Positions 7,969-30,361 of a stretch of 64,000 nucleotides of DNA are shown here, piece after piece. Each line of letters starts with the position of its first letter. Within the stretch, counting starts at the first letter, position 1. Under the pieces are notes generated by a model. That model ran no database searches. It saw nothing but the letters and a program-made list of their open reading frames with translations, and had not been told where the DNA came from. Made by a program: the position numbers and the translations under genes. The stretch spans positions 806,001 through 870,000 of the forward strand of contig NZ_CP041406.1 in the NCBI RefSeq assembly GCF_014905135.1. The letters are read 5' to 3'. Source of the stretch: Sulfurimonas paralvinellae (GTDB lineage: Bacteria; Campylobacterota; Campylobacteria; Campylobacterales; Sulfurimonadaceae).

Positions 7969-9192
7969 ATGTTTGATACAGACTTATTGATTGCTCTTGG
8001 TTTTATGGCTCTTTTATTCCTAAGACATGTGGCAATACTCAAAAAACCAAATAAGATTAATTATGCTCCTTTAGTAATCGCTATAGGGGTACTTGCAAGT
8101 TTGATCCACCTTATTATTCACCCTAATCCATCTGATATTGTTCTACTTATGCGTGAATCGTTGATGCCTTTGGTCGTTGCAATGATTCTATACATTGTGA
8201 TGAATATACTCAATCAGACAAAAGAGTCTTACTCTGCTAAGCTGCATGAAGAGTTCACGCAGGCTCTTTCAAGAGAGGTTAGTGAGTTGAAAAAATTCAT
8301 TCTCGATCTTGAGTCACGTATGACAGAATACTCCCAAGAAGATCGCAAGACACAACTGGAAATTCAAGAGAAGTTTAAAACAGATGTCAAAGCCCTTGAA
8401 GCCATACAGGCAAACCAGATGGAATTTGCAAAGAAATTCGATACCATCGGAGAGTGGCATGAAAGTGTCAATAAATCTTTTGCATACTTCAGTGAAGTGC
8501 AGCTGCCTGAACTTGACAATGTTGTTCACAAGCATATTGATATACTTAGAGTCGCTGAACAGGATCATTACAATAAGCTCACGCAGCTTCTTGAGAAAGT
8601 GGGTGAAAGCAGATATGACATAGCTGAAGAGATAGAGAACTTAAAAAGCAGTCTGGAGTCGATGAAAACACTCTCCGATACTATTGCAAAAACGATAGTT
8701 GATAAAACACTCTCAAAACTCTCAGCTCTCATGCAAGAGTTCGAATCAAAAATGCTCACGTTGAAACTTCACGCAGAAGGTGTTGAAACTTCTTTGTATG
8801 AAGATGAAAGCACATTGACAAACATCCGAACGCAAAGTGAGATGATTATGAAGCAGATCGTTTTGTCTGCACAGGGTATGGAAGAGTTTCAGGAGTACAA
8901 TAATATAGTGACAAAGACACAAAACAGTCTGCGTGAGATAGTACAAGAGATAGAGAATATAAAAACTGACTATATCAAATCCCAAGCGCAACTTGGTGAG
9001 ATTGTCCATGATTTTCAAAGAGAAAGAGCCAAAGAAGCCGAAGGTGAAATGGTTTTTATAAAAAAACTTCAGGATATAGAAGAAAAACTCGAAGCACTTG
9101 GCGAACACTACAAAACATCAACTGCCGATATGACAGAACATGTGCAACTGCTTGCAAAAAAAGCACAGCTTCAAAAAGGTTATGGTGAATGA
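7969..9192 (+). CDS. membrane-anchored long coiled-coil protein, unknown
   Basis: 407 residues. Two or three hydrophobic segments lie at the N-terminus (about 5-20, 32-50 and 66-84), followed by a largely helical, charged coiled-coil tail from about 88 to the end, rich in heptad-like Leu/Glu/Lys. No catalytic motif is visible. The stop TGA (9190-9192) overlaps the ATG (9189-9191) of the remnant of ybgC. In the uninserted chromosome the two genes therefore shared an ATGA junction and were probably translationally coupled. The mobile element now separates them. Confidence 0.7.
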   Translation: MFDTDLLIALGFMALLFLRHVAILKKPNKINYAPLVIAIGVLASLIHLIIHPNPSDIVLLMRESLMPLVVAMILYIVMNILNQTKESYSAKLHEEFTQALSREVSELKKFILDLESRMTEYSQEDRKTQLEIQEKFKTDVKALEAIQANQMEFAKKFDTIGEWHESVNKSFAYFSEVQLPELDNVVHKHIDILRVAEQDHYNKLTQLLEKVGESRYDIAEEIENLKSSLESMKTLSDTIAKTIVDKTLSKLSALMQEFESKMLTLKLHAEGVETSLYEDESTLTNIRTQSEMIMKQIVLSAQGMEEFQEYNNIVTKTQNSLREIVQEIENIKTDYIKSQAQLGEIVHDFQRERAKEAEGEMVFIKKLQDIEEKLEALGEHYKTSTADMTEHVQLLAKKAQLQKGYGE

Positions 9193-9230
9193 AAATACGA
9201 GTCTATTACGAAGACCTCTTTTTTCTCTAA
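9189..9230 (+). pseudogene. ybgC: 5' remnant of the original ybgC start
   Basis: This frame reads MKIRVYYED, exactly the N-terminus of the intact thioesterase at 29984, then leaves homology after GAC (9213-9215) and stops at 9228-9230. It keeps the ancestral ATG. The downstream copy uses a GTG contributed by the element. The remnant marks the left junction of the insertion. Confidence 0.9.
9190..9214 (+). repeat. attL: left 25-bp direct repeat
   Basis: The repeat starts TGAAAATACGAGTC and ends TATTACGAAGA. It is identical to 29985-30009. It covers the ATGA overlap of the upstream gene and codons 2-8 of ybgC. The flanking bases differ on both sides (A then C here, G then T at the right), which sets the limits of identity. 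Confidence 0.9.
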
Positions 9231-10411: not shown

Positions 10412-11944
10412 ATGTTTTTTGCAAAAACAAAACCTCAAAAAACATCTAACTTTGGCCAATATGCACCATCAAGTGTATACGGTCGAGGTTTAACATCTGT
10501 ACAATCCGCACAAGATGAGTTGTTTAATGAGCATATCCCATTCAAACCTCTTAATCTTATTAGCATTGAAAAACAATTTTTCGGACTTGAGCTACATTCA
10601 AAGCAGCCATTTTATATGCCGTATGAAGATAGTACACATTTACTATATTGCGGACCTACAAGGTCTGCAAAAGGTGTGGCACTATCACATAGAGTCGTAG
10701 AAGCCTTTAAACAGGGAAAAGGTGTCATTATCATTGACCCAAAAAAAGATGATTTTTTACCTCAGGTAATCACAGAAGAACTTCAAAGACAAAACAGGAT
10801 AGATGATCTCGTTATAGCTTCATATCCAAATAATTTTTCCTACTCAGGTTTCGACAAATCTGACACATACAGAGAGTTTGCAAACAAACTTATCGTTGCA
10901 CTCGATTTAGCCCCAAGTGGCGATCCAAAATCAGATTTTTATCGTCGTAATGAGCGGACACTTTTAAAAAAAGTAGTAGATATATTTTTAAACTCATTAT
11001 CTTTACTGGATATCGAATTTGAGATGAATTACAAGAGCCTTGCAAACTTCATTAAGTATCTCTATTTGGATTTATCTGCCACTCAAAACTACAATCATGA
11101 AATCTCAAAAAACAAACCAAATATGGATCTGATAGAGCGATATTCAAAACGATACTTTGATCCAGATTTGTTCCAAAAATTGGAACTGTCATTTGATGAA
11201 ATTTCTACTCTTAAAGGGTTGCATCAAACCATTTTAGAGCTATGTGATGCAAATATTTACACTCAAATAGATATTTCGGATGCCTTATACAATGGAAAAG
11301 TTATCTATATACAAGCCGATCAGCTCGATGAAGCGAGTCTAAAAATGCTTAAAATTTTACAGGTCGATATCATCCAAAAAGCTAAGAAAAAAAGAGCAAA
11401 TTGCATAGTGATAGCTGATGAAGTAAGTTTTTACGCTACAAAAACGCTTTCAGATAGCCTCTCCACGATAGCAGGATTTGGAGTGCATTTTATTCTTGCA
11501 TTGCAAGACCTTGCTCAACTAAATGATGAAACAATAAAAAACCCAATCCTTTCCAACTGCCAAACAAAACTTTTTTACAAAAGTAGCGATATCGAAACGC
11601 TTGAGTACATAGAAAAAATATCAGGTTTGGAGCTTGTAACCCAAACCACAAAACATCAATCAGATATTACTATCCGACAGATTCAAGAACCGCTACTAAA
11701 CATTACGCGACTTCGAGCACTCAAGCGAGACAGAGTTGCTGTACTTATCGTCGAATCACTCAATACCCCTGTGATAGTGCAAACTTGGCATATTGAAGTA
11801 AAACAAAAATTTGACTGGTCAAAACACGACAAATTGATATTTAAGCCGAAAGTCTCACAACTCTCAAAAGATTTTAGAGTCGAGCTAAAACGAGAGAGCT
11901 TTGATGAAGTTGCACAAGAGCCGAAAAAGGAGCTTCAACTATGA
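10412..11944 (+). CDS. type IV secretion coupling ATPase, VirD4/TraG/TraD type
   Basis: 510 residues. The Walker A region is CGPTRSAKGVAL near residues 80-91, followed by the typical strand GKGVIIIDPKKDD. The Walker B-like segment is CIVIADEVSFYA near 330-341, then an FILALQDLAQL sensor-like strand. This is the coupling-protein family that recruits DNA-protein complexes to a conjugation channel. It lacks its own N-terminal membrane helices, which are probably supplied by the preceding (interrupted) gene. Its stop overlaps the next gene by ATGA. No channel genes accompany it. An alternative is a TraM-recruitment (TraD_N-like) ATPase, which is the same functional class. Confidence 0.85.
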   Translation: MFFAKTKPQKTSNFGQYAPSSVYGRGLTSVQSAQDELFNEHIPFKPLNLISIEKQFFGLELHSKQPFYMPYEDSTHLLYCGPTRSAKGVALSHRVVEAFKQGKGVIIIDPKKDDFLPQVITEELQRQNRIDDLVIASYPNNFSYSGFDKSDTYREFANKLIVALDLAPSGDPKSDFYRRNERTLLKKVVDIFLNSLSLLDIEFEMNYKSLANFIKYLYLDLSATQNYNHEISKNKPNMDLIERYSKRYFDPDLFQKLELSFDEISTLKGLHQTILELCDANIYTQIDISDALYNGKVIYIQADQLDEASLKMLKILQVDIIQKAKKKRANCIVIADEVSFYATKTLSDSLSTIAGFGVHFILALQDLAQLNDETIKNPILSNCQTKLFYKSSDIETLEYIEKISGLELVTQTTKHQSDITIRQIQEPLLNITRLRALKRDRVAVLIVESLNTPVIVQTWHIEVKQKFDWSKHDKLIFKPKVSQLSKDFRVELKRESFDEVAQEPKKELQL

Positions 11945-13297: not shown

Positions 13298-13828
13298 ATG
13301 AGAGTTTATATCACAGACTTAGAGGCTTACAATAATGGTCGTTTAGTTGGAAGTTGGTACGAATTGCCAATGAACAAAGATGAGCTTACGCAAGCTATAC
13401 AAAACGAGTTGCAAAAAGGGCAACAAGTTTGTGAACATGCCCATACGCACGAAGAATATTTTATCTCAGATTTTGAGTATGATTATATGAAAATCGACGA
13501 ATACGACAGCCTTGATGAACTCAATGAAATTGCACAAAAAATTGAAAAGTTGGACGAAAGTGAGAAAATGGCAGTAAAAATGATGGTTGAAAACCATATA
13601 GTGAACTCCATAGATGAAGCTATAGAAAATCTTGAAAATATGATCTGTACAGGAGAAAACAGTATGGAGGATATAGCTTACAATTATATTGAAGAGAGTG
13701 GGCTACTACAAAGAATGCCGGAGAATTTACAAGGATATTTTGATTATGAGGCGCTTGGGCGTGATATGGAGATTGAAGGGAACTATTTTAGAGATGAAAA
13801 TAATATTTTATGGGAGTATGTAGGATAA
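13298..13828 (+). CDS. ardA: ArdA antirestriction protein
   Basis: 176 residues, close to the family length. The N-terminus MRVYITDLEAYNNGRLVG followed by SWYELP is diagnostic of ArdA, and the protein is highly acidic, as expected for a mimic of bent DNA that blocks type I restriction enzymes. ArdA is usually expressed early in the recipient from the leading region of conjugative elements, and this gene stands behind an unusually folded non-coding region. A Shine-Dalgarno AAAGGA precedes the ATG. Just after it, AGGATA and TATCCT form a small hairpin over the stop codon. Confidence 0.9.
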   Translation: MRVYITDLEAYNNGRLVGSWYELPMNKDELTQAIQNELQKGQQVCEHAHTHEEYFISDFEYDYMKIDEYDSLDELNEIAQKIEKLDESEKMAVKMMVENHIVNSIDEAIENLENMICTGENSMEDIAYNYIEESGLLQRMPENLQGYFDYEALGRDMEIEGNYFRDENNILWEYVG

Positions 13829-13907: not shown

Positions 13908-16900
13908 ATGCTTTTAGATAATAAAAAAAATGGTAGAGTTGGTGATGTTTTAAAACAAAACATCACCAACAATTCAAAACTCTCTATTATCTCAGGCTAC
14001 TTTACCATCTACGCCTTTGCAGAGTTAAAAAAAGAACTTAGCAAAATTAAGGAGCTAAGGATTCTCTTTAGTGCACCGATTTTTACAAATGGATATACCA
14101 ACAACTACCTATCTGGTGAACCAGAAGAGATAAAATTTAAAAATCAACTACAGCAGGTTAAAATTGCTCGTGAGTGTGCAACATGGATAAAAGAGAAGGT
14201 TCAAGCCAAAGAGGTTAAAACTGCGGGTGCTATCCCTTTTAATCTCTATCACATTGATAATAACACAGCAATTACAGGAAGTTCTAACTTCTCCTGCGTT
14301 GGTCTTGGATATGCAAGCTCCTCCACCTTTGCTATGAATACATTGGCAAAAGATGCCCAAACAACAAAAGAGTTTTTAAGCACTTTTGATGAAGTGTGGA
14401 ACAACAAAGAGATGGTTCGTGAAGTCAAGCAAGAGATACTCGAAGCGATAGAGGAGATTTATAGCGACAAATCCCCACAGTTTTTATACTTTATGACCCT
14501 TTATAATATTTTCAAAGAGTTTCTTGGTGAACTTGACGAAGAGAAAATCATACGGACAAAAACAGGGTTTAAAGATACCATTGTATGGAATAAACTCTAT
14601 AATTTTCAAAGAGATGGTGTGCTTGGTGCAATAGATAAGCTTGAAAAATACAATGGTTGCATCATTGCAGACAGTGTTGGGCTTGGTAAAACTTTTGAAG
14701 CACTTGCCGTTATCAAGTATTATGAGCTAAGAAACGATAGAGTCTTGGTTTTAGCTCCAAAAAAACTAAGAGAGAACTGGTCTATCTACACCATAAATGA
14801 CAAAAGAAATATACTGGCTGAGGATAGATTTAACTATGATGTTTTAAACCATACAGATTTATCACGCTCAAAAGGGATGAGTGGGGAGATAAACCTCTCT
14901 ACTCTCAACTGGGAGAACTATGACCTCATAGTCATAGATGAATCACACAACTTTAGAAACAGTGGCACAGCAAACAAAAAGAAAAAAACAAAGTCAAGAT
15001 ATGCACGGCTTTTAGAAGATGTTTTACAAAAAGGTGTAAAAACAAAAGTGCTTATGCTATCAGCAACCCCAGTAAACAACAAACTAAACGACCTTAAAAA
15101 TCAAGTAGCATTCATTACAGAAGCAAACGATGAAGCTTTTGCCTCACAAGGTATCAAGTCTATAGAACAGACACTTAGAAAATCGCAAACCAAATTTAAT
15201 GCTTGGATGAAGTTAAGCGAAAAAGAGCGAACTACCGCCAAGCTTTTAGACAGTCTCAATTTTGACTACTTTAAACTGCTTGATTTAATCACCATTGCAA
15301 GAAGCAGAAAACATATTGAGAAGTATTATGATACGACCAATATTGGCAAATTTCCGCAAAGAAATAAGCCACTCAATCTAAAACCCGACATCGACACTTT
15401 AAACGCATTTCCTCCACTGAGCGATATAAACAAAACCATAAGAAGACTCTCATTGTCTGCTTATTCCCCTTTAAAGTATGTCTATCCGCACAAGCAAGAG
15501 GAGTATGCTCAAAAGTATGATATTGATTTAGGTGGAGGACGGGTTTTTAGGCAGTCTGATAGAGAAAATTCTCTTATCCATCTCATGCGAGTAAATCTAC
15601 TCAAGCGGATGGAAAGCTCCATAAACTCTTTTTCATTAACGCTTATTAAGCTGATAGAAACAAACCAAAAAATCATAGATTTAATAGACAATCATGTAAG
15701 CAGTAGCTTTGAAGAAGCAAGCATAATAGATGTAGATATAGAAAGTGACGCATATGCTTCACAACTCATAGGAAACAAAGTAAAAGTCTTAATCTCTGAT
15801 GTAGATAAAATCAAATGGAAACAAGATTTACAAAGTGATTTAGATAAGCTTGAAGAGTTGTTGGCTAACTCTATTGAAGTGGATAACAAAAGAGACAATA
15901 AACTCAAAATCCTCAAAGAAAATATCAAGCAGAAAATCCAAAACCCTTTTAATGCAAACAACAAAAAGGTGATTATCTTCACAGCCTTTTCAGATACAGC
16001 CGAGTATCTCTATCAGAACATACATCAGTGGGCGAAAAAGGAGTTTGGAGTTGAGAGTTGTCTCATAACTGGAAGTGGCACAAACAAAACAACTCTAAAC
16101 ACAAAACACAAAGACTTAAACTCACTCCTTACTCATTTCTCCCCTATCTCAAAAAGTAGAGCCAAAACCAACCCAGAAGCTACAAAAGAGATAGATATAC
16201 TCATAGCAACCGATTGTATATCCGAAGGGCAAAACTTGCAAGATTGTGATTATCTCATTAACTACGATATTCACTGGAATCCTGTAAGAATCATCCAAAG
16301 ATTTGGTCGTATTGATAGACTTGGTTCAACCAACGAAACGATACAGCTTGTGAATTTTTGGGCAAATATGGAGCTTGACGAATACATAAACTTAGAAAGC
16401 CGTGTAAGTGGTCGAATGGTATTGCTTGATGTCTCTGCAACTGGAGAAGAAAACATCATAGACACGCAAACCACAGGTGATATGAATGACTTATCATACC
16501 GTGCAAAGCAGTTAAAAGAGCTTCAAGAGACAGTTATAGACCTTGAAGATGTCAGTGGTGGTATATCCATCACAGACCTTACTTTAAACGACTTTAAAAT
16601 GGATTTAATGGGCTACCTTAAAACAGATGAAGCAAAACTACAAAAAACGCCTCTTGGTATTCATAGCGTAGTATTAAATCAAGACGAAGCAAACGACTCC
16701 ATAGAGAAGGGAACTATTTTTTGTCTCAAGCTTTTAAAAAATGAAGTGCAAACAGACAACTACTCATTAGAGCCTTACTACTTGGTTTATGTAAATGAAG
16801 AGGGTGAAGTCAAACTAGGCTTTAGCAGTGCCAAAACCATACTCGACATCTACAAAAAACTCTGTATGGGTCAAGAGAGAGCCATACAAGATGCAGTAAC

Positions 16901-17102
16901 ACTTTTTGAAAATGAAACAGACAACTATAACAATATGAACAAATACACCACACAGCTACAAACAGCCATTGAGAGTATTATAGGGAAAAAAGAGGAGAGT
17001 GGAATGGACTCACTTTTTTCTCGTGGTGGCACAACTATTTCAAGCGACACCATAAGCAACATAGAAGATTTTGAACTTATATCTTACTTGGTTATAAAAT
17101 GA
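13908..17102 (+). CDS. PLD-domain SNF2-type helicase, defence-associated
   Basis: 1064 residues. Residues 1-185 are phospholipase D-like, ending in a single HKD-like element, LYHIDNNTAITGSSNFS, in which the usual Lys after His-x is Asp, so nuclease activity is uncertain. Residues 230-850 are an SF2 helicase: ADSVGLGKTFE near 254 (Walker A), VIDESHNF near 343, LMLSATPVNN near 382, IIFTAFSDTAEY near 688 and QRFGRIDRLGS near 797. A C-terminal domain of about 220 residues has no motif I recognise. It overlaps the DUF4391 gene by ATGA and lies upstream of mod and res. The same helicase/DUF4391 pair is known to me as a recurrent neighbour of type III methylases. The coding start is followed by a 14-bp perfect hairpin. 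Confidence 0.85.
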   Translation: MLLDNKKNGRVGDVLKQNITNNSKLSIISGYFTIYAFAELKKELSKIKELRILFSAPIFTNGYTNNYLSGEPEEIKFKNQLQQVKIARECATWIKEKVQAKEVKTAGAIPFNLYHIDNNTAITGSSNFSCVGLGYASSSTFAMNTLAKDAQTTKEFLSTFDEVWNNKEMVREVKQEILEAIEEIYSDKSPQFLYFMTLYNIFKEFLGELDEEKIIRTKTGFKDTIVWNKLYNFQRDGVLGAIDKLEKYNGCIIADSVGLGKTFEALAVIKYYELRNDRVLVLAPKKLRENWSIYTINDKRNILAEDRFNYDVLNHTDLSRSKGMSGEINLSTLNWENYDLIVIDESHNFRNSGTANKKKKTKSRYARLLEDVLQKGVKTKVLMLSATPVNNKLNDLKNQVAFITEANDEAFASQGIKSIEQTLRKSQTKFNAWMKLSEKERTTAKLLDSLNFDYFKLLDLITIARSRKHIEKYYDTTNIGKFPQRNKPLNLKPDIDTLNAFPPLSDINKTIRRLSLSAYSPLKYVYPHKQEEYAQKYDIDLGGGRVFRQSDRENSLIHLMRVNLLKRMESSINSFSLTLIKLIETNQKIIDLIDNHVSSSFEEASIIDVDIESDAYASQLIGNKVKVLISDVDKIKWKQDLQSDLDKLEELLANSIEVDNKRDNKLKILKENIKQKIQNPFNANNKKVIIFTAFSDTAEYLYQNIHQWAKKEFGVESCLITGSGTNKTTLNTKHKDLNSLLTHFSPISKSRAKTNPEATKEIDILIATDCISEGQNLQDCDYLINYDIHWNPVRIIQRFGRIDRLGSTNETIQLVNFWANMELDEYINLESRVSGRMVLLDVSATGEENIIDTQTTGDMNDLSYRAKQLKELQETVIDLEDVSGGISITDLTLNDFKMDLMGYLKTDEAKLQKTPLGIHSVVLNQDEANDSIEKGTIFCLKLLKNEVQTDNYSLEPYYLVYVNEEGEVKLGFSSAKTILDIYKKLCMGQERAIQDAVTLFENETDNYNNMNKYTTQLQTAIESIIGKKEESGMDSLFSRGGTTISSDTISNIEDFELISYLVIK
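13938..13970. repeat. 14-bp perfect inverted repeat in codons 11-21 of the helicase gene
   Basis: GTTGGTGATGTTTT (13938-13951) pairs exactly with AAAACATCACCAAC (13957-13970) with a 5-base loop. It begins 30 bases after the start codon. As RNA it would be very stable and could slow early elongation. As DNA it could be a protein-binding site. Confidence 0.7.
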
Positions 17103-17833
17103 TACAAGAACCTATACACAATCTTAAAATCCCACACGAGTGTAAGATAGGCAAAAGGCTAACAAAAAAGCAGTTTCTTGAAAACTTCTCTCTCAAAGCC
17201 AATGAGAAAAAAATCCTTAAAGAGGATATTCAAAGCATCACTTTGGAGTATCTACTTAACAAACACAACATCAACATAGCGCCATTTGTAGATGAAGAGA
17301 ATGATTACTCAGAGATAGCCTTTATACAAGTGGAGATTCTAAACCAAAGCAAGTTAAAGTCCATAGCGACAATTGTTCAGTATATCCCATACCCTCTAAT
17401 CGTATTTTTTATCTATAAAAATTCACTCTGCATAAACATAAGCCCAAAACGCATCAATAAAAACGACAGCACGAAGCTAGCTGTAGAAGAGTCATACTTT
17501 ACAAACTGGATAGACCTTGAACAGACTAACTCTTTAGAAGAAGATTTTCTTAAAAGCTTAGAGATTCAAAACCACCCTTTTACAGATTTTCTATCATTTT
17601 ACAACAGTTTTTTAGATAAAATAGTAGCATTTAATGCCTCTGCTTACAGTGGAAGTTTGAGTGTCAATGAAGAGACGAAAACCATACTTGACGAGATAGC
17701 ACAGTGCGAAACCAAGATAACAGAGCTAAAAAACAAGATAAAAAAAGAGACGAACTTTAGCGACAAGGTCAATATGAACATAGAGCTGAAAAAAATGAAG
17801 AATAAAATAAACGATTTGAAAGGAAAACTGTAA
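17099..17833 (+). CDS. DUF4391 protein
   Basis: 244 residues. The order of conserved pieces, GKRLTKKQFLENFSLKANEK, then EYSEIAFIQVEIL-like and QYIPYPLIVFFIY strands, then SPKRINKND and EESYFTNWIDL, fits DUF4391. The C-terminal 50 residues form a charged coiled coil. No catalytic residues are evident, so it is likely a partner or specificity subunit of the upstream helicase, with which it overlaps by four bases. It is followed by a structured 64-base sequence rather than directly by mod. Confidence 0.8.
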   Translation: MIQEPIHNLKIPHECKIGKRLTKKQFLENFSLKANEKKILKEDIQSITLEYLLNKHNINIAPFVDEENDYSEIAFIQVEILNQSKLKSIATIVQYIPYPLIVFFIYKNSLCINISPKRINKNDSTKLAVEESYFTNWIDLEQTNSLEEDFLKSLEIQNHPFTDFLSFYNSFLDKIVAFNASAYSGSLSVNEETKTILDEIAQCETKITELKNKIKKETNFSDKVNMNIELKKMKNKINDLKGKL

Positions 17834-17840
17834 TGATAAT

Positions 17841-17904
17841 CTCAAAGAGTTCTAGCTCGAAGCTAGCACAGCCAAATATCTTGAACGATTTGGCACCCTT
17901 TGAG
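17841..17904 (+). ncRNA. candidate three-stem structured RNA between DUF4391 and DUF3800
   Basis: The outer stem CTCAAAG (17841-17847) / CTTTGAG (17898-17904) encloses two hairpins. The first is CTAGCT / AGCTAG with loop CGA (17852-17866). The second is GCCAAAT / ATTTGGC with a 10-base loop (17871-17894). All stems are perfect. It starts 7 bases after the DUF4391 stop and has no terminator-like T run. It could be a processed leader, an attenuator or a small RNA. It is not a tRNA. Confidence 0.5.
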
Positions 17905-17948
17905 GAGTTGTGTAATTATACAACAATTAAAAGATTAAAGGAAGGTTC

Positions 17949-18761
17949 GTGAAATTAATATATGTAGATGATTCTGGAAATACAGGAAAAAAACTAGATG
18001 ATATATTGCAGCCTTTGTTTTTACTTGGTGGTTTTATAATAGATGAAGATAATTGGAAAAAAGTTGATAAGGCTATAGCAGATATAAAAATAAAATACAA
18101 TATAGAAGATATGGAAATACACTCTATAGAGATAATGAATGGGAAAAAAGGAACTCCATATCAAGATTGGGCTTATGAGAAAAAACTACAATTTTTTTCA
18201 GATATTTTGCAAGTTATTCAAAAATTTGACTTAAAAGTAATCTATTTTTCAGTTAAGAAGATAAACTTTAAAAGATATTTTCAATCAAAATATGGAAAAG
18301 ATTTTGAACAACAGTTTAATATCTCTCCATATTTACTTGCTTTTTCTTATATGCTCCAAATTGCGGATTCTTATCTTGTATCTCAAGATTCTAATGGAAT
18401 GCTGATATTAGATGAGCAAGATGAGTGGAAAAAACCAGCAAATAAAACTTTTAATCTTTTAACCACACTTATAGATGAACCGGAAGTGCAAATAGAAAAA
18501 CTTCTTGATAGGAGTTTTTTTGTAGAATCAAGTGAAAGCAATATGATACAACTTGCAGATGTTATAGCATACACTACAAAACGATATTTAGAATTAGAAA
18601 TTAGGGAACTTAATGATAAAAAAAGAGATGAAAGAATAAAACTTTATTATATATATAAAGACAACATCTACAAGCCAAATTTTGAGTATGGGAGTCATTC
18701 TATATTGAAGTGGTTAGAAGATAATATTGGCAACCAAACGAAGGATAAACCAATTGGTTAG
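17949..18761 (+). CDS. DUF3800 protein, predicted nuclease-like
   Basis: 270 residues with a GTG start after AAAGGAAGG. The N-terminal KLIYVDDSGNTG, central LGGFIIDEDNW and MEIHSIEI, and C-terminal ESNMIQLADVIAYTTKRY are the conserved acidic patches of DUF3800, thought to have an RNase H-like fold. The catalytic Asp/Glu positions (DDSG and QLAD) are kept. By eye its codons are much more AT-rich than those of DUF4391 and the mod ends, and it has its own leader and hairpins on both sides. It therefore looks like a later insertion into the defence operon. DUF3800 genes are often found in defence islands. Confidence 0.8.
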   Translation: MKLIYVDDSGNTGKKLDDILQPLFLLGGFIIDEDNWKKVDKAIADIKIKYNIEDMEIHSIEIMNGKKGTPYQDWAYEKKLQFFSDILQVIQKFDLKVIYFSVKKINFKRYFQSKYGKDFEQQFNISPYLLAFSYMLQIADSYLVSQDSNGMLILDEQDEWKKPANKTFNLLTTLIDEPEVQIEKLLDRSFFVESSESNMIQLADVIAYTTKRYLELEIRELNDKKRDERIKLYYIYKDNIYKPNFEYGSHSILKWLEDNIGNQTKDKPIG

Positions 18762-18771
18762 TCACTGTTGG

Positions 18772-18798
18772 CTGCCGATACAATGGTATTGTAACAGA
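18772..18798 (+). repeat. hairpin after the DUF3800 gene
   Basis: TACAAT and ATTGTA pair around GGT near 18779-18793, within an outer CTGTT / AACAG pair. It lies between DUF3800 and mod and matches the position of the dyads before DUF3800, so the gene is bracketed by hairpins. Confidence 0.45.
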
Positions 18799-18829
18799 AA
18801 ATAGTTAAAATTTCAAGAGGTAAAAATAT

Positions 18830-20671
18830 ATGAAAAAATTAGATGGTAAAAGTTTAGATATAGTGAGTGAAAATGTAGAGAAGTTAAAAGAGCTATTCCC
18901 TGAAATTTTTGAAGAAGGGAAAATCGACTTTGAAAAGCTACAAAATGAGCTTGGCAAGTTTATAGACAAAGAGCAAGAGAGATACAACTTCACTTGGAAC
19001 GGCAAACAAGAAGCCAAAAAGATAGCCCAAACTCCATCTACTGGAACACTAAGACCTGCACCAAACGAGTCTAAAAACTGGGACACTACACAAAACCTCT
19101 ACATAGAGGGTGATAACCTTGAAGTGTTAAAACTTCTACAAAAATCTTACCACAAAAAAGTCAAAATGATATACATAGACCCACCTTACAACACAGGCAA
19201 AGACTTTGTCTATAAAGACAACTTCAAAGACAATATTAAAAATTATCTTGAAGTTACAGGGCAAGTAGATAGTGAAGGAAATAGACTAAGCACAAATAGT
19301 GATACAAATGGGAGGTATCATAGTGATTGGCTTAGTATGATGTATCCGCGACTCAAACTTGCAAGAAATTTACTTAAAGATGATGGGGTTATTTTTATAA
19401 GTATTGATGACAATGAAGTGGCAAATCTTAGAAAGCTTTGTGATGAGATTTTTGGGGAGGATAATTTTGTAGGAAATATTATATGGCAACATAGTATTCA
19501 AGGTAAAGGTTATGGAGGTAAATTGTCAATACATCATAATCATATTTTAGTATTTAGTAAAAATACTGATTTTGAATTAGGAATGTTTAAAAGAACAGAA
19601 GAAGATAATAAAAATTATTCTAATCCAGATAATGATCCAAATGGAGATTGGCGAACAGGAGATGTGAGAAATGCACTTGATAGACCAAATTTAAAATATA
19701 ATATTACTACACCCAGTGGAAATATAATTAAACATCCAGATAATGGATGGAGATGGAGCAAAGAAACATTAAATGAAAAAATTAAATCTGGTGAAATTAT
19801 TTTCAATGAAGATGAAACAAGAATAATCAGAAAAATTTATTTAAAAAATCAAGAAGGTAGAGTTCCTGAAAGTATATTTGATGGAAAAAAATTTGGAACA
19901 ACACGAGATGGAACAACTGAGTTAAAAGATCTATTTAATAAGCCTCCTTTTGATACACCTAAACCAACTTTATTAATTAGAAAGATAATGGAGTTAAATT
20001 GTCATGAAAATGACTTTATCTTAGACTTCTTCTCAGGCTCAGCCACAACAGCCCATGCTGTGATGCAACTCAATGCAGAAGATGGAGGAAAGAGAAAATA
20101 TATTTGTGTCCAAATCCCCGAACCAACAGATGAAAAAAGTGAAGCCTACAAAGCAGGATATAAAAACATCTGTGAGATAGGAAAAGAGAGAATAAGAAGA
20201 GCAGGAGAAAAGATAATAGTCGACAATCCAGACAAAGATTTATCAAATCTTGATATAGGTTTTAAAGTATTTAAACTTGATAGCTCCAATATAAAAGAGT
20301 GGGATAGTGATTTTGATAATTTAGAGCAAAACCTCCTTGATGCTACTGAAAATATCAAAGAAGATAGAACAAGCGAAGACCTACTCTATGAAATCCTCCT
20401 CAAATATGGACTTGATTTAACTCTTCCTATTGAAGAAAAAATTATTGATGGCAAGAAAGTGTTTATTATAGGTTTTGGTGCATTAGTAGTTTGCCTTGAT
20501 GACAATATAACAACTGACATAGTTGAACAAATAGCTGACCTAAAAGAAGAATATGAAACTGAAGTGATGCGAGTAGTATTTAAAGACAGCAGTTTCAAAG
20601 ATGCTGTTGTCAAAACAAATGCTATTCAGATACTAAAACAGCATGGTATTGATGAAGTCGTGAGTGTGTAA
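18830..20671 (+). CDS. mod: type III restriction-modification DNA methyltransferase (Mod)
   Basis: 613 residues. The methylase motif IV YIDPPYNTG is near residues 114-122 and motif I DFFSGSATTAHAV near 400-412. That permuted order is the beta class used by type III Mod, giving N6-methyladenine. The target recognition region lies between the two (about 140-395). That middle part is visibly richer in A/T-ending codons than the two conserved ends, so the recognition domain has probably been exchanged. Mod works alone as methylase and with Res for cleavage. Here Res does not follow directly: the KAP gene is inserted with no gap. Confidence 0.93.
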   Translation: MKKLDGKSLDIVSENVEKLKELFPEIFEEGKIDFEKLQNELGKFIDKEQERYNFTWNGKQEAKKIAQTPSTGTLRPAPNESKNWDTTQNLYIEGDNLEVLKLLQKSYHKKVKMIYIDPPYNTGKDFVYKDNFKDNIKNYLEVTGQVDSEGNRLSTNSDTNGRYHSDWLSMMYPRLKLARNLLKDDGVIFISIDDNEVANLRKLCDEIFGEDNFVGNIIWQHSIQGKGYGGKLSIHHNHILVFSKNTDFELGMFKRTEEDNKNYSNPDNDPNGDWRTGDVRNALDRPNLKYNITTPSGNIIKHPDNGWRWSKETLNEKIKSGEIIFNEDETRIIRKIYLKNQEGRVPESIFDGKKFGTTRDGTTELKDLFNKPPFDTPKPTLLIRKIMELNCHENDFILDFFSGSATTAHAVMQLNAEDGGKRKYICVQIPEPTDEKSEAYKAGYKNICEIGKERIRRAGEKIIVDNPDKDLSNLDIGFKVFKLDSSNIKEWDSDFDNLEQNLLDATENIKEDRTSEDLLYEILLKYGLDLTLPIEEKIIDGKKVFIIGFGALVVCLDDNITTDIVEQIADLKEEYETEVMRVVFKDSSFKDAVVKTNAIQILKQHGIDEVVSV

Positions 20672-22801
20672 ATGTTAGTTGTAGATAAGCCTATTGAAAG
20701 TATAGATGAAGATTTTTTAAATAGAAAAGATTTTGCTCAAAACATCGCTAAAGCTATTTTAAATTATTCAGATAAAAATAACTCTAGCTTAACAATAGGA
20801 CTTTATGGAAAATGGGGGTCAGGTAAAACATCTATAATAAATATGATTACTGAAAATATTGATGATGTGATTATCTTTAAGTATGAACCTTGGATATTCT
20901 CAGATACTCAACAGTTGATAAGTAATTTTTTTAAAGAATTTGCTAAAGCCATAAAGCACAAGGATTATGCAGAAGATGCAAAAAAAATTGGAGAAGAGCT
21001 TGAAACATATGCAAGCTTTTTTGAACCATTAAGTTTAATACCAGAGCCTACAGTATCTTTATTAAGTTTGGCAAGTGCAAAAGTTTTTGGAAGTATTGGT
21101 AAAGCAAGTAAGAAATGGGGAAATTTAAAGAGTAAAAATCTCTCAACAACAAAGCTATCTATCGAAAAGCATTTACAAAAATTAGACAAAAAAATTTTAA
21201 TTATTATAGATGATATTGATAGGCTTAATAATACTGAAATACGCCAAATATTTCAAATGATTAAAGTATTAGGAAATTTCCCTAATACAATATATTTATC
21301 TTCAATGGATAGAGAAGTTGTTGTTGAAGCATTATCCGAAGTGCAAAAGGGTGATGGAAGTGAATATCTTGAAAAGATAATCAATGTGCCATTTATTGTG
21401 CCAAGTATTAGCAAAGAAGATGTTCAGAAGTTTTTATTTATGAAGCTTGATGAAATCATTGAAGATGCAGATTTTGATAAAAATCATTGGGGAAATATTT
21501 ATCATAGTGGATTTAAAAATTTCTTTTCGACCATTCGAGATGTAGTGAGATATATAAATATTTTTCAGTTTAACTATGGAGTTTTAAAAAATAAAGTTAA
21601 TACCGTTGATTTAATTGCTTCAAGTGCCTTACAAGTTTTTGAACCTAAAATATTTGAATCTATGAAGTATAACAAAAATATTTTTGTTGGCTCAATTCCT
21701 GAAAGTCAATATGGTAGAAATGATGAAAAAGCTAAAATAAAGGAGTTTATTGAAAAGTCATTTGAAAACTTACAAGTTTTATCTCAAGAGGTTTATCTAC
21801 TTTTTTTAAAAGAACTATTTGTTAAAATCAATGAAGTATATTCCAATACACATTATGTAGGTGCTACTTCAAGGTGTAGAAAAGATGCAAAAATTTGTAG
21901 TGCTGAATATTTTGATACATACTTTACAATGATACTAAATGATAAAACACTCTCTAGTTTTGAGATGAAAAGTTTTATTAAAGACCTATCCAATGAAAAG
22001 AAGTTTAGAAACGATATCATATCCTTAAATAGAGAAAACAAGATAACAGACTTTTTAGAAAAATTACAAGATTTTACACAAGAAGACATTGAAATTAGAA
22101 ATTATCAAGTTTTATTTAATGTTCTGATGGACTTAGCAGATACCTTTCCCGAAGAAGATGATGGTATGTTCTCTTTTGGAAACAGTATGCAGGTTATGAG
22201 AATTTTTCATCAGTTATTAAAAAGAATAGACAATAAGGATGAAAGATTTAAAATTATAAAAACAGCTATGGAACAAGCTGAAAACAGTATAAGTATATTA
22301 TCGGAAGAGATAAGTATTTATATGCAAGAACATGGTGAATATGATGGGGATGCAAAATCTGAATCACAATTAACTATAGAAAAAGATGATTTATTGGAAT
22401 TGAAAAAATTACTGTTATTAAAGATTGAACAATGGACTTCAAAATATAGTTTGCTGCAACATAAAAAAGGACTTAGCATATTATATGTTTGGCTGAGATT
22501 AGACGAAAAAAAATCTAAAGAATATATTGCTAAAGAAATTAAAGAGGATAAAAAATTAATAGATTTCTTGAAACTTTTTATATCATATTCTTATAGTCAA
22601 ACAAGCGGAGATTATACCACTAGAAAAAATATAAAATATAATTACGATGGTATAGTAAATTTTATTGATGTAGCTAAAATCATAGATAGAGTTAATGAGT
22701 TAAATATAACTGATGATAAAGATAAATTGGCACAGTATGCAATAGAAAATTTTTTAGCACACTATAACGGTATAGCAATAGTAAATGAGGATGATTTATA
22801 A
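20672..22801 (+). CDS. KAP-family P-loop NTPase
   Basis: 709 residues. Walker A is LYGKWGSGKTSIIN near residues 44-57 and Walker B is ILIIIDDIDRLNN near 173-185, with the long insertion between them typical of KAP NTPases. Downstream is the VRYINIFQFNY helix region found in the family, then a long helical C-terminus. KAP NTPases occur in phage-exclusion systems such as PifA, so a defence role is likely, but the target is unknown. I see no clear membrane helices in the insertion. The gene starts at the base after the mod stop and its own stop shares one base with the res start. It is very AT-rich beside its neighbours. Confidence 0.85.
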   Translation: MLVVDKPIESIDEDFLNRKDFAQNIAKAILNYSDKNNSSLTIGLYGKWGSGKTSIINMITENIDDVIIFKYEPWIFSDTQQLISNFFKEFAKAIKHKDYAEDAKKIGEELETYASFFEPLSLIPEPTVSLLSLASAKVFGSIGKASKKWGNLKSKNLSTTKLSIEKHLQKLDKKILIIIDDIDRLNNTEIRQIFQMIKVLGNFPNTIYLSSMDREVVVEALSEVQKGDGSEYLEKIINVPFIVPSISKEDVQKFLFMKLDEIIEDADFDKNHWGNIYHSGFKNFFSTIRDVVRYINIFQFNYGVLKNKVNTVDLIASSALQVFEPKIFESMKYNKNIFVGSIPESQYGRNDEKAKIKEFIEKSFENLQVLSQEVYLLFLKELFVKINEVYSNTHYVGATSRCRKDAKICSAEYFDTYFTMILNDKTLSSFEMKSFIKDLSNEKKFRNDIISLNRENKITDFLEKLQDFTQEDIEIRNYQVLFNVLMDLADTFPEEDDGMFSFGNSMQVMRIFHQLLKRIDNKDERFKIIKTAMEQAENSISILSEEISIYMQEHGEYDGDAKSESQLTIEKDDLLELKKLLLLKIEQWTSKYSLLQHKKGLSILYVWLRLDEKKSKEYIAKEIKEDKKLIDFLKLFISYSYSQTSGDYTTRKNIKYNYDGIVNFIDVAKIIDRVNELNITDDKDKLAQYAIENFLAHYNGIAIVNEDDL

Positions 22802-25761
22802 TGAAAATACAATTTGAAAGCAATTTAAACTACCAAAATAAAGCAATAAGCTCCATTGTGGATATATTTGAAGGGCAAGAGATTTGTCAAAGTAATTTCT
22901 CTGTCTCTCGTGTTGTAGGCGATACGCTTGGTATCACTGAAAATGAGCTTGGTATTGGTAATAGACTTGAACTTTTAGATGACGAGATACTTGCTAATGT
23001 GCAAAAGATTCAGCTTAAAAATGGACTTCCTCAATCTAAAAAGTTAAGTAGTATGGACTTCTCAGTGGAGATGGAGACGGGAACGGGTAAGACTTATGTC
23101 TATCTCAAAACCATTTTTGAACTAAGTCGTAAATATGGCTTTACAAAATTTATAATCGTTGTACCATCCATCGCCATAAAAGAGGGAGTTAAAAAGACAC
23201 TTGACATAACCACTGAACACTTCAAATCACTCTTTGATAATGTAAATTATGACCACTTTGTCTATGATAGTTCCAACTTAGAGCAAGTAAGAGATTTTGC
23301 AACGAGTAGCGATATTCGCATAATGGTTATAAATATAGACGCTTTTAGAAAAAGCTTCACTGACCCAAGTAAAGATACAAAAGCAAATATTATCCACCGT
23401 CAAAACGATAGACTAAACGGTGAGAGACCCATAGACTTTATCGCTTCTACAAACCCTATACTTATCATAGATGAGCCTCAGAGTGTTGATAATACCTCAA
23501 AGGCAAAAGAGGCTATAGAAAAGCTAAATCCTCTTTGTAAGCTACGCTACAGTGCTACACACATAGAGAAGTTCAACCTTATGTATAAACTTGACTCTAT
23601 TGATGCATATGAGCAAAAACTTGTAAAACAGATAGAAGTTGCCAATGTAAAAATAGACGACAGTTCAAACAAAGCATACATAAAACTTCTAAGTGTAAAA
23701 GCCAACCCAAGAAGTGCAAAAGTAGAGATAGATATAACAAAAAATGGCAATACAAGCAGAAAAACCATAACCATAAAAGATGGAAGCGATTTATATGAAC
23801 TCTCTAATGGTCGTGATGTGTATAGTGGCTACACCGTCAATGATATTTATATCGAAAAAGGGAATGAATATATCGAATTTTCGAATGGAGAAAGTGTAGG
23901 TATCGGCGAGGTTATAGGTGATATAGATGATGATAGCATTAAACAGCTTCAAATACGAAAAACAATTGAAGAGCATTTAGATAAAGAGCTGCGTTTGACC
24001 TCCAAAGGGATTAAGGTATTGAGTCTCTTTTTTATAGATAGAGTGGCGAACTATAGAACCTATGACGAAGAGGGAAATCCCCAAAAAGGAAAATATGCAC
24101 GATGGTTTGAAGAAGCCTACAAAGAGATAAGCCAAAAAAGAAAATACAAAACCCTCTTTGAAGATGTAGATATTAGCGCCGATATTGAAAAAATCCATGA
24201 TGGATACTTTGCACAAGATAGAAGTGGCAAACTCAAAGATAGCACGGGTAAAAATAAAGATGATGAGAGTGCATTTGACAAGATTATGAAAAACAAAGAG
24301 AAACTGCTTAGTTTTAGTGAGCCTTTGCGATTTATATTTTCTCACTCTGCACTCAAAGAGGGATGGGATAACCCCAATGTTTTTCAGATTTGTACTCTTA
24401 ATGAAACAAATTCTGTAATGAAGAAAAGACAAGAAATTGGTCGTGGGCTTAGAATATGTGTCAATCAAGACGGAGAGAGGGTTCAAGGCTTTTATGTCAA
24501 TACATTAACCGTTATGGCAAATGAAAGCTATGAAGAGTTTGCAAAAAGTCTGCAAGCAGAGATAGAACAAGAGGAAGGAATTAAGTTTGGTGTTATAGAG
24601 GAGCACTTTTTTGCAAATATACCTATAAAAAATGAAGAGGGTGATGTAGAATACTTTGGAGCCGACAACAGTGAGGCTATATTTGCATATCTCAAAGAGA
24701 ATGATTATATAGACTCAAGGGGTAAAATACAAGATAGCCTCAAGCTCGATATAAAAAATGAGAAGTTTGAAGTGCCTGCCGAGTATCAAAATTTACAAGC
24801 TGAAATAACATCAGTCATCAAAAAAATTGCGGGTAATCTCAACATAAAAGATGCAAGCGACAGAAAGCTTGTAACGCTTAACAAAGAAGTGTTACTAAGT
24901 GATGATTTTAAAGAGTTGTGGGAGAGAGTAAAATACAAAACTACTTATAGAGTAGATTTTGACATTGATAGTTTAGTGAATAAGTGTGCTGAGAAAATTG
25001 CAAATGAACTCACCATTGGTAAGATTAAGTATCTCTATTCTAAAGCAAAAAATAAAATCACAAAAGTTGGTGTTGAAGTTGATTTAGATAGTGTCAAAGA
25101 GCAGTTTAGCGATGTGGAAATTATAGACTATGAACTACCAGATATTATTACATACCTGCAAAATGAGACAAATTTAACACGCAAAAATATTGTAGATATA
25201 CTTATTAAAAGCGGAAAATTAGAGAGCTTTAAAAACAATCCTCAAAAGTTTATAGATGGTGCTATTAAAATCATAAAAAAGACAATGAGTATATTTATTG
25301 TTGATGGAATCAAATACCAAAAAATCGGCAATGATTCCTACTATGCCCAAGAGTGTTTTGAAGACCAAGAGCTTTATGGATACCTATCTAAAAATATGAT
25401 TGAAAACAGAGAAAACAAGTCTATCTACAACTACACCGTTTATGATTCAGATGTAGAAAAAGGGTTTGCAAGGTCGTTTAATGAAAATGAAGATGTAAAG
25501 CTTTTTACAAAACTCCCTTCTTGGTTTAAAATAAATACCCCTCTTGGTGGATACAACCCTGACTGGGCTGTTCTAATCGAAAAAGACAATGAAGAGAAGC
25601 TATACTTTGTAGTTGAAAGCAAGGGAAGTCTCTTTACAGACGATTTACGAGATACAGAAGAGGCAAAAATAAAATGTGCAACTGAGCATTTTAAAGAAAT
25701 ATCAACAGAGACTCAATTTATACAGTCTAATAATTTTGAGCATATGAGGGAGTTTTTGTAA
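22801..25761 (+). CDS. res: type III restriction enzyme helicase-endonuclease subunit (Res)
   Basis: 986 residues. The SF2 helicase has METGTGKTYVYLKTI near 90 (Walker A), LIIDEPQSVD near 221 (motif II) and RQEIGRGLRI near 541 (motif VI). The C-terminal endonuclease has NPDWAVLIEKD near 919 and LYFVVESKG near 934-942, matching the PD...(D/E)XK core. Res with Mod moves along DNA and cuts between head-to-head unmethylated sites. All motifs are intact, so the enzyme is probably active. It ends 11 bases before a 13-bp hairpin shared with the convergent regulator gene. Confidence 0.93.
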   Translation: MKIQFESNLNYQNKAISSIVDIFEGQEICQSNFSVSRVVGDTLGITENELGIGNRLELLDDEILANVQKIQLKNGLPQSKKLSSMDFSVEMETGTGKTYVYLKTIFELSRKYGFTKFIIVVPSIAIKEGVKKTLDITTEHFKSLFDNVNYDHFVYDSSNLEQVRDFATSSDIRIMVINIDAFRKSFTDPSKDTKANIIHRQNDRLNGERPIDFIASTNPILIIDEPQSVDNTSKAKEAIEKLNPLCKLRYSATHIEKFNLMYKLDSIDAYEQKLVKQIEVANVKIDDSSNKAYIKLLSVKANPRSAKVEIDITKNGNTSRKTITIKDGSDLYELSNGRDVYSGYTVNDIYIEKGNEYIEFSNGESVGIGEVIGDIDDDSIKQLQIRKTIEEHLDKELRLTSKGIKVLSLFFIDRVANYRTYDEEGNPQKGKYARWFEEAYKEISQKRKYKTLFEDVDISADIEKIHDGYFAQDRSGKLKDSTGKNKDDESAFDKIMKNKEKLLSFSEPLRFIFSHSALKEGWDNPNVFQICTLNETNSVMKKRQEIGRGLRICVNQDGERVQGFYVNTLTVMANESYEEFAKSLQAEIEQEEGIKFGVIEEHFFANIPIKNEEGDVEYFGADNSEAIFAYLKENDYIDSRGKIQDSLKLDIKNEKFEVPAEYQNLQAEITSVIKKIAGNLNIKDASDRKLVTLNKEVLLSDDFKELWERVKYKTTYRVDFDIDSLVNKCAEKIANELTIGKIKYLYSKAKNKITKVGVEVDLDSVKEQFSDVEIIDYELPDIITYLQNETNLTRKNIVDILIKSGKLESFKNNPQKFIDGAIKIIKKTMSIFIVDGIKYQKIGNDSYYAQECFEDQELYGYLSKNMIENRENKSIYNYTVYDSDVEKGFARSFNENEDVKLFTKLPSWFKINTPLGGYNPDWAVLIEKDNEEKLYFVVESKGSLFTDDLRDTEEAKIKCATEHFKEISTETQFIQSNNFEHMREFL

Positions 25762-28474: not shown

Positions 28475-28813
28475 ATGTTAGATTCACTTGAAGAAGTTTT
28501 ATTGGATATGAAAGATGAGTTGAAAATTCAAAGACAATTATTGCAACTTGTAATTGAGTCGTTAACAACCAAAAAAGCAGTAGCAAAGTTTTTAGGTGTT
28601 TGCACAAAGACTGTGGAGACAATGACGCAAGATGGACGCCTGATTGAAGGAGAAGCATGGTTTTACAATGAACAAGGTGTGAAAGAATTTATTCCGGATG
28701 GTGTAATAGAAGCAAAACGCAAAAGAGAGTTAAAAAAAGGATCCGTTATTAAAGGTACTAAGCATAAAATGCACCCAACAGCATCAAAATTTATGGTGAT
28801 TAAAAATGGCTAA
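28475..28813 (+). CDS. excisionase-like helix-turn-helix protein
   Basis: 112 residues with a GGAGGAG ribosome site before the ATG. After a helical leader, the segment TKKAVAKFLGVCTKTVETMT followed by QDGRLIEGEAWFY matches the MerR/excisionase-type (HTH_17) fold in which a winged helix reads DNA. The C-terminus is basic. It overlaps the integrase gene by 8 bases, so the two are co-expressed, and it is best read as the recombination directionality factor. A plain DNA-binding role elsewhere is possible. Confidence 0.75.
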   Translation: MLDSLEEVLLDMKDELKIQRQLLQLVIESLTTKKAVAKFLGVCTKTVETMTQDGRLIEGEAWFYNEQGVKEFIPDGVIEAKRKRELKKGSVIKGTKHKMHPTASKFMVIKNG

Positions 28814-29957
28814 ATCATTTAAATATATTTACTCAGATATAAAATTTACAATTTTCGAGCGTCATAAAAAATGGTGGTTGGATTTTTATTGGAAAAAGAA
28901 ACGAATTCGTAGATCAACTGAATTGTCAGCTAATCAAGATAATCTAAAAGTGATTAAAAAACAGATTATTCCAGATATAATCATAGGGTTGGGTCATAAG
29001 ATTGAAGAGACAATGAAAACAGATAAAACAGAGCAAACTTTAAATGAATTTGCTCAAGAGTTTTTTGACATGCAACGAGCCCGTAAGGAAGTAAGAGAAC
29101 ATGTTATCGATAAAAATATTGCACATTATAACAAGCATATTGCTCCATTGTTTGGAGATAAAAAATTAGTTGATATAGATATTGAAGAGCTGGATAAATG
29201 GCAAATTCAATTATTGCAAAACTATAAACACTTAACTGTGCAAAAGTTTCGTTCTGTTTTGTTCTCCATACTAACAGAAGCAGTTAGATACAAAAGGATA
29301 CAGGAGAATCCTCTTTCATTTGTCAAGGCACCAAAACTAAAACACAAAATTGATGAAGATATAAATCCATTCACAGAGACAGAGCTTATAAAGATTTCTC
29401 ATACAGCATATGGATATATGAAGAATTTCATTTTCTTAATGGTTAGTACTGGAATGAGACCGGGTGAGATAGTTGCACTTAAATGGAATGATATTAATTT
29501 TGAGAAAAAATTTATACGGATTAATAAAACGGTTGTACGAGGAAACGAAGGAGATGTGAAAACATATTCATCGAATAGATTTGTAGATATGTTACCACAG
29601 GCTGAGCTATATTTGCAAAGGCAATTTGAATTAACAGGTCATCATGAGTTCGTATTTTTGAGTAGTTTCCATAAACAATTTTATTCCCATGATATAATAG
29701 GTGTAAATTTTAAAAAAATATTGCAAAAAAGTGGTGTAGAAGTAAGAAAGCTGTATAATTTGCGTCATACATTTGCATCTCAAATGATTAGTAAGGGTGC
29801 AGATATTGTTTGGGTGTCTAAAATACTTGGACACAAAGATGTATCTATTACTTTAAAAATATATACGAAGTTTATACAGGAAGATGATGATATGCGTTTT
29901 AAGAAAATTGAAAAAATGGGCACGATTTTGGGCACGATAGAAGAAGTAAGTGTTTAA
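28806..29957 (+). CDS. int: tyrosine recombinase (integrase)
   Basis: 383 residues. It has an N-terminal arm-binding-like part, a core-binding domain (about 80-180, SAM-like), and a catalytic domain with Arg in STGMRPGEIVALKW near 214, LRHTFASQM near 318 and LGHKDVSITLKIYTKF ending in the nucleophile Tyr near 351. The usual His three residues before the second Arg is Tyr (LYNLRHT), a variant seen in some element integrases. It ends 27 bases from ybgC and so sits at the right end beside attR. It would carry out integration into the 25-bp core in the 5' end of ybgC. Confidence 0.93.
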   Translation: MAKSFKYIYSDIKFTIFERHKKWWLDFYWKKKRIRRSTELSANQDNLKVIKKQIIPDIIIGLGHKIEETMKTDKTEQTLNEFAQEFFDMQRARKEVREHVIDKNIAHYNKHIAPLFGDKKLVDIDIEELDKWQIQLLQNYKHLTVQKFRSVLFSILTEAVRYKRIQENPLSFVKAPKLKHKIDEDINPFTETELIKISHTAYGYMKNFIFLMVSTGMRPGEIVALKWNDINFEKKFIRINKTVVRGNEGDVKTYSSNRFVDMLPQAELYLQRQFELTGHHEFVFLSSFHKQFYSHDIIGVNFKKILQKSGVEVRKLYNLRHTFASQMISKGADIVWVSKILGHKDVSITLKIYTKFIQEDDDMRFKKIEKMGTILGTIEEVSV

Positions 29958-29983: not shown

Positions 29984-30361
29984 GTGAAAATACGAGTCTA
30001 TTACGAAGATACAGATACCGGTGGGGTTGTGTACCATTCAAACTATCTGAATTTTTGCGAGCGGGCAAGAAGTGAGGCTTTTTTTGACAAAGGTCTGACA
30101 CCTGTTTTGGAAGGCGGGCATTTTGTCGCGCGTAAAGTTACAGCTGACTTTTATACAAGTGCAAAACTTGGAGATCTTCTTGAAGTGAAAAGTGAACTTT
30201 TGGAGATGAAAGCAGCCTCTTTTTCTCTACGACAGACTATTTACAGAGATGATGTCAAGATATTTGAACTTGAGATACTGCTTGTTTATATCACTTTTGA
30301 AGGTAAAGTACAAAAACTCGATGAAACGAGTAAAGCACTTGTTTTATCACTCTTCACGTGA
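29984..30361 (+). CDS. ybgC: YbgC/4HBT acyl-CoA thioesterase
   Basis: 125 residues, normal for the family. The hot-dog fold signature is YYEDTDTGGVVYHSNYLNFC near 6-25, with the catalytic Asp and the HSNYL motif, followed by ERARSEAF. It hydrolyses short- or acyl-ACP thioesters and is tied to phospholipid or Tol-Pal functions in other bacteria. The element supplies its new upstream region: GTG start at 29984 preceded by AAGG only two bases away, and GGGGG further up, so expression may be weaker than from the original ATG. The end overlaps the convergent gene by 15 bases. Confidence 0.92.
   Translation: MKIRVYYEDTDTGGVVYHSNYLNFCERARSEAFFDKGLTPVLEGGHFVARKVTADFYTSAKLGDLLEVKSELLEMKAASFSLRQTIYRDDVKIFELEILLVYITFEGKVQKLDETSKALVLSLFT
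29985..30009 (+). repeat. attR: right 25-bp direct repeat
   Basis: It is identical to 9190-9214. It covers the last two bases of the GTG start and codons 2-8 plus two bases of ybgC. The base before it (G here, A at attL) changes the host start from ATG to GTG. Confidence 0.9.

Follow-up and report, generated by a model that had tools for sequence, protein, structure and literature searches.

Type III restriction-modification (RM) systems are taught as two genes, mod and res, that need two inverted sites; their cleavage is ATP-dependent and requires these sites to be unmethylated. EcoP15I and EcoP1I are such systems, and the locus described here shares homologous Mod and Res subunits with them. 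Unrelated defence genes between RM genes, in operon orientation, are known from type I systems, as exemplified by prrC in EcoprrI, TgvAB, and DarTG2, the last embedded in an E. coli type I locus (PMC12255303). The PDC and HEC candidates likewise come from guilt-by-embedding, as described in PMC12988326. SNF2-family helicases beside adenine methylases occur in DISARM (DrmD) and BREX (BrxHI and BrxHII).

The window analyzed here, 64,000 nucleotides of Sulfurimonas paralvinellae DNA, carries a block of six ORFs at 13908-25761, all on the forward strand, and the families that the initial annotation had assigned to them were confirmed by Pfam and PADLOC profile matches. Four of the genes are treated below as the core. 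The first (13908-17102, 1064 aa) encodes an SNF2/RapA-like helicase with a degenerate N-terminal PLD-like domain, and its reported ATGA overlap with the second, the DUF4391 gene (17099-17833, 244 aa; Pfam E 2.5e-57), is real (-4 nt). The DUF4391 protein scored 194.9 bits against a gathering score of 29.9 for Pfam PF14335. An approximately 90-nt conserved structured element (17834-17927, forward strand) forms the left edge of cargo slot 1, which holds a DUF3800 gene (17949-18761, 270 aa, GTG start; E 4.4e-17). The third core gene encodes a type III Mod with a DPPY motif before motif I (18830-20671, 613 aa; E 7.5e-242), and the fourth a type III Res with SF2 helicase and PD-(D/E)xK endonuclease domains (22801-25761, 986 aa; PADLOC E 0, RE_endonuc E 2.5e-36). 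Both are homologous to the EcoP15I subunits (4zcf: Res E 2.8e-65, Mod E 2.9e-76). Between them, in cargo slot 2, lies a PifA-like KAP P-loop NTPase gene (20672-22801, 709 aa; KAP_NTPase E 2e-48), with a mod/KAP junction of 0 nt and a KAP/res overlap of 1 nt. In this window, the DUF3800 and KAP genes have a GC content of 27-28%, versus 32-36% for the core genes.

Compared with EcoP15I and EcoP1I, the block adds the helicase and DUF4391 genes before mod as well as internal cargo slots; compared with the type I operons that bear embedded genes, its host operon is a four-gene type III variant. Defence genes inside restriction operons being already known, what would be new here, as judged from sequence, is the four-gene type III variant hosting them, and the locus reads better as a putative, unnamed four-gene anti-phage system than as a six-gene one. 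RefSeq gives generic names to the E. coli copies and most plasmid copies, a literature search for DUF4391 yielded a single paper that names it once in its text, and PADLOC models the helicase as C3a139. A name for the four-gene unit was found in none of the resources searched, a set that did not take in the list of the guilt-by-embedding preprint, and this absence is not proof of novelty.

The block could be told apart from the other helicase-containing systems. Its helicase shows PLDc_2 (below cut-off), SNF2-rel_dom, and Helicase_C domains and matches the PADLOC C3a139 "HKD+Snf2" model (E 1.6e-139), a PLD-like plus SNF2 layout similar to that of the HKD+Swi2/Snf2 helicase of Type-2 BR systems (PMC12839542). 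It lacks an HKD motif, however, and its partners are Mod, Res, and DUF4391. It scored only 163.7 bits against the NCBIfam equivalog for DISARM DrmD, whose cut-off is 610 bits. Neither DrmA nor DrmB occurs in the locus, whose six genes, like the flanking genes that were scanned, match other families, and a weak DrmA match of the helicase reflects shared SNF2 similarity. The DUF499 ATPase and DUF3780 of Type-2 BR systems (PMC12839542) were not found among the block's proteins either. As for the KAP NTPase, residues 4-686 align to positions 7-704 of the 720 in the PADLOC PifA model, nearly its whole length (E 1.7e-87), and a Walker A motif, GKWGSGKTS, is present. PifA acts in T7 exclusion; the block's KAP, a putative exclusion protein, differs in that it sits between mod and res.

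The block is carried by a 20.8-kb integrated element (9190-30009) that is bracketed by a perfect 25-bp direct repeat. The left copy (9190-9214) is a probable attL, and the right copy (29985-30009), at the 5' end of a 4HBT thioesterase gene, a probable attR. A tyrosine integrase gene (28806-29957) lies next to the right repeat, and the element also encodes a TraD/TraG-type coupling protein (10412-11944) and, 79 nt upstream of the block, an ArdA antirestriction protein (13298-13828), all of these features being on the forward strand. In a congener (G163), the two flanks stand a few hundred bases apart with a single diverged copy of the repeat, as expected of an empty site.

To examine the conservation of the locus, the DUF4391 Pfam profile was searched over the family, order, and phylum, plasmids were searched by tblastn, and a helicase profile was run over genome and viral collections; each locus was then annotated with profiles of all four core proteins. 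DUF4391 alone, used as a seed against genome contigs, gave no matches, its sequence being too divergent, and the helicase profile succeeded. All four core genes were found in 143 of 196 helicase loci, and the remainder mostly stop at a contig edge. In the helicase-seeded genome loci that extended 7 kb or more downstream, DUF4391 was present in 60/60, Mod in 58/60, and Res in order in 57/60, counts drawn from the best 80 of at least 587 matches, so that close helicase relatives are favoured and the loci are not independent. With the same downstream length, the complete core was in order in 35/35 DUF4391-seeded loci and complete in 41/50 loci of the viral collection. A helicase adjoined 41 of the 43 intact DUF4391 genes from the DUF4391 searches; of the remaining two, one lies at a contig edge and the other is a weak match. 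Among the three genome exceptions, two from Bacteroidetes MAGs (L143 and L150) retain all four genes in the order Mod-Res-x-helicase-DUF4391, where x in L143 is GmrSD-like; the association of the helicase/DUF4391 pair with mod-res therefore survives a change of gene order. The core was found in Campylobacterota, Firmicutes, Proteobacteria, Bacteroidetes, and archaea, including some E. coli chromosomes, and copies in E. coli are free of cargo.

The core proteins also diverge together. Across 117 loci, their distances co-varied for all six pairs (Mantel r 0.70-0.84, values reached by 0 of 499 permutations), a correlation that could equally arise from shared linkage and does not separate linkage from functional coupling. 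Catalytic motifs were kept through the set: DPPY before motif I in 143/148 Mod proteins, PD..ExK in 133/134 Res proteins, and the helicase motifs in 183-185 of 185 helicases. The proposal that the helicase/DUF4391 pair belongs with type III mod-res was thus upheld by its near-universal occurrence there, its persistence through rearrangement, and the co-varying distances. By these comparisons, SNF2 helicase, DUF4391, Mod, and Res form a conserved and co-diverging putative core, and the four are very probably one working unit. A small HTH-type gene, possibly a regulator, stands immediately upstream of the helicase in four loci (L032, L046, L044, and L268); an HTH-type gene is annotated as MAD1-like in E. 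coli MB64, and the window has ArdA in that place.

Of the order's 299 genomes, 68 had a type III Res, against 15 with the helicase. The helicase is thus missing beside most type III Res of the order, so Res can work in its absence. In a Res tree, the helicase-linked proteins all fell on one side of a well-supported branch; nine helicase-less Res, several of them cut by contig ends, were on that same side and eleven on the other. Four genomes with a helicase-less Res on the linked side had no helicase genome-wide at E 1e-100. Because some Res on the linked side lack a helicase nearby, the pair can be lost, and it apparently marks one branch of type III systems and was lost from some members. 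An extra motor and putative adaptor conserved in one branch raises a testable question, namely, what the motor adds.

The helicase aligned best with RapA, the RNA polymerase-associated SNF2 ATPase, and other SNF2 ATPases, and RapA was its closest solved relative in both sequence and fold. The whole-helicase fold search was dominated by the SNF2 motor, and the assessment of the PLD-like domain relied on its motif alone. An HxK(x4)D motif was present in only 3 of 185 helicases, and no conserved H or K was found at the HKD position in A7. The "PLD-SNF2 helicase" of the initial annotation was thus right in layout and wrong insofar as the name implies the catalytic motif of a nuclease. Because the motif is missing in 182/185 helicases and the PLDc_2 score lies below the Pfam cut-off, the PLD-like domain is not expected to cut DNA. 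No nuclease was recognized in the helicase-DUF4391 pair.

DUF4391 evolves fast, with a median identity of 22% versus 47% for the helicase. Its structure was predicted with a pLDDT of 96.7; the best Foldseek hit had an E value of 0.035, and VIA-align rows were confined to the C-terminal coiled coil, a lack of convincing PDB matches that is no proof of a new fold. Four helicase loci have no Mod and Res (L190, L193, L203, and L208); in these, the helicase is followed by an Eco57I-type methylase whose N-terminal region is related to DUF4391 (hhalign probability 96.8, E 2.4e-10, 178 columns), a fusion confined to contigs of the viral collection. When a domain stands alone in some loci and is joined to a methylase in others, contact between the two is classically suspected. 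Docking of the motor to Mod-Res by DUF4391 is favoured because of this fusion, and we lean modestly towards DUF4391 coupling the motor to the methylase. The fusion in L203 additionally bears a DUF3800 domain.

Taken as a whole, the locus is probably a four-gene RM system with two exchangeable effector slots on an integrated element, a judgement that includes the following mechanism. As in EcoP15I, Mod would recognize an asymmetric site, methylate adenine on a single strand, and guide Res. The helicase would be a double-stranded DNA translocase that does not itself cut, and DUF4391 would dock it to the Mod-containing complex, letting the motor act with Res on unmethylated DNA. The motor might, for example, clear bound proteins or join distant complexes, making poorly oriented sites restrictable. 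That it widens the substrate range of Res is a guess, made because site orientation is a known weakness of type III enzymes (PMC12707154), and it falls somewhat short of probable. We advance still more tentatively the idea of a widespread, unnamed class of motor-assisted type III systems, in which a new-fold adaptor, DUF4391, couples a non-cutting translocase to Mod-Res and the slots are refilled as cassettes, with the approximately 90-nt element marking one edge in the genus. If it were true, DNA beyond the classical type III enzymes, with few or same-orientation sites or with protein-covered sites, would be restricted.

The strongest competitor is the reading of the initial annotation, in which helicase and DUF4391 make up a second, separate effector that attacks DNA without Mod's mark, independently of Res. 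The two genes are translationally coupled, move as a block, and pair in some loci with the Eco57I-type methylase in the absence of Res; moreover, in Type-2 BR systems the role of primary effector has been proposed for HKD+Snf2 helicases (PMC12839542). The helicase here, however, has no HKD motif and the pair no recognized nuclease, so a non-cleaving mechanism would be required, and Res is kept in nearly all loci. We consider this reading improbable. Less probable again is that the pair works as a RapA-like remodeller, delaying Res expression or activity until Mod protects the host. The kinship with RapA fits such a role, as does the delayed translation of EcoP15I res during establishment (PMC12707154), but the resemblance mostly concerns the SNF2 motor that both have in common, and the many type III systems that lack the pair become established all the same.

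The preferred reading, a four-gene core with exchangeable slots, treats the remaining genes as cargo. A total of 187 ORFs were interposed among core genes, 177 of them in operon orientation. Slot 1 (DUF4391/Mod) was occupied in 51 loci, slot 2 (Mod/Res) in 59, and the helicase/DUF4391 gap in seven, and 63 of the 143 complete loci contained no cargo. The interposed ORFs formed 107 similarity clusters. The families recognized, mostly with links to defence or toxins, were AAA_21/AbiEii, RloB, GmrSD, PemK, RhuM, Schlafen, YhcG nuclease, Abi_2, Abi_C, Fic, AAA_13 (RloC/PrrC-like), and KilA-N; many matched PADLOC PDC or HEC models and others the AbiLi, GajA, PtuA, or AriA models. Candidate anti-phage effectors can be read off from the slots, and several of these belong to no recognized family. 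Genes are also present between mod and res in seven type III loci that lack the helicase (L228, L232, L234-L237, and L246), so a filled slot 2 is no peculiarity of the helicase branch.

The neighbourhood count that the initial annotation had proposed gave a split answer: mod and res flank helicase-DUF4391 almost always, and DUF3800 and KAP are rare in their slots, being found in 3/74 sampled slot-0/1 and 2/92 sampled slot-2 proteins, respectively. Its description of the two as modular extras was borne out, other genes or nothing filling the slots elsewhere. On these comparisons the slots look interchangeable, holding DUF3800 and a PifA-like KAP NTPase here and varying cargo in other loci, and we regard with high confidence the cargo as optional to the core. 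Simple defence-island clustering, in which independent neighbours do not cooperate, would suit a mobile element with ArdA and the KAP relatives found on plasmids away from type III genes. It accounts for the cargo but not for a core order that hardly varies among bacteria and archaea, and as an explanation of the locus it is very unlikely. The single cooperating system of six obligate genes is the least credible of all, for although KAP sits in a 0/-1 nt mod-res junction and is hence probably co-expressed, and a DUF3800 domain is fused to the L203 methylase, two genes this rare in slots so often empty, with rotating families and a differing base composition, fit poorly with an obligate role.

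Within the four-gene reading, cargo genes would act as back-up effectors, by abortive infection or restriction of modified DNA, that share the operon and are unneeded by the core. DUF3800 and KAP could be either independent cargo or a guard of the restriction enzyme. The TgvAB system of a Vibrio type I locus protects without HsdR (PMC11411939), which favours independent cargo, and PrrC of EcoprrI is activated upon inhibition of its restriction enzyme (PMC12707154), which favours a guard role. Loci with and without cargo form a natural series for asking if embedded effectors act as guards of the restriction enzyme in the way that PrrC guards EcoprrI.

Finally, the stretch 3' of DUF4391 folds better than all 200 shuffles (z -3.29). 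The structure reported for a leader of the DUF3800 gene is therefore real, but its assignment to DUF3800 was rejected: the element was not found with the two DUF3800 relatives and stands before other cargo. In relatives, it recurs at 82-87% identity over about 90 nt (L028:10339-10427, L060:14787-14699, L023:6890-6802, L271:5247-5162, L270:969-882, and L272:6077-5992). The copies that follow DUF4391 precede a PemK-like gene (L028), a 246-aa gene (L023), and a Mod gene without slot-1 cargo (L060), and those away from DUF4391 lie before relatives of the L023 gene (two genomes) or next to integrase-like genes (a third genome). The element is dispersed in the genus, both in and outside type III loci, and often stands immediately before genes that are unrelated to one another. 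Rfam gave no match in the window. A short protein of 39 codons, coupled at both ends, is an unlikely explanation, amino acid-changing differences outnumbering silent ones and third positions being no freer. One hairpin keeps its pairing through three two-sided changes, in four sequences only, and relatives do not preserve a second hairpin that the single-sequence fold contains; the element could be either a leader with a regulatory role or a handle for recombination. One relative of the 246-aa protein of L023 is 66% identical to it, and the protein itself contains an RNARNDICHH stretch, which may be a HEPN-type motif.
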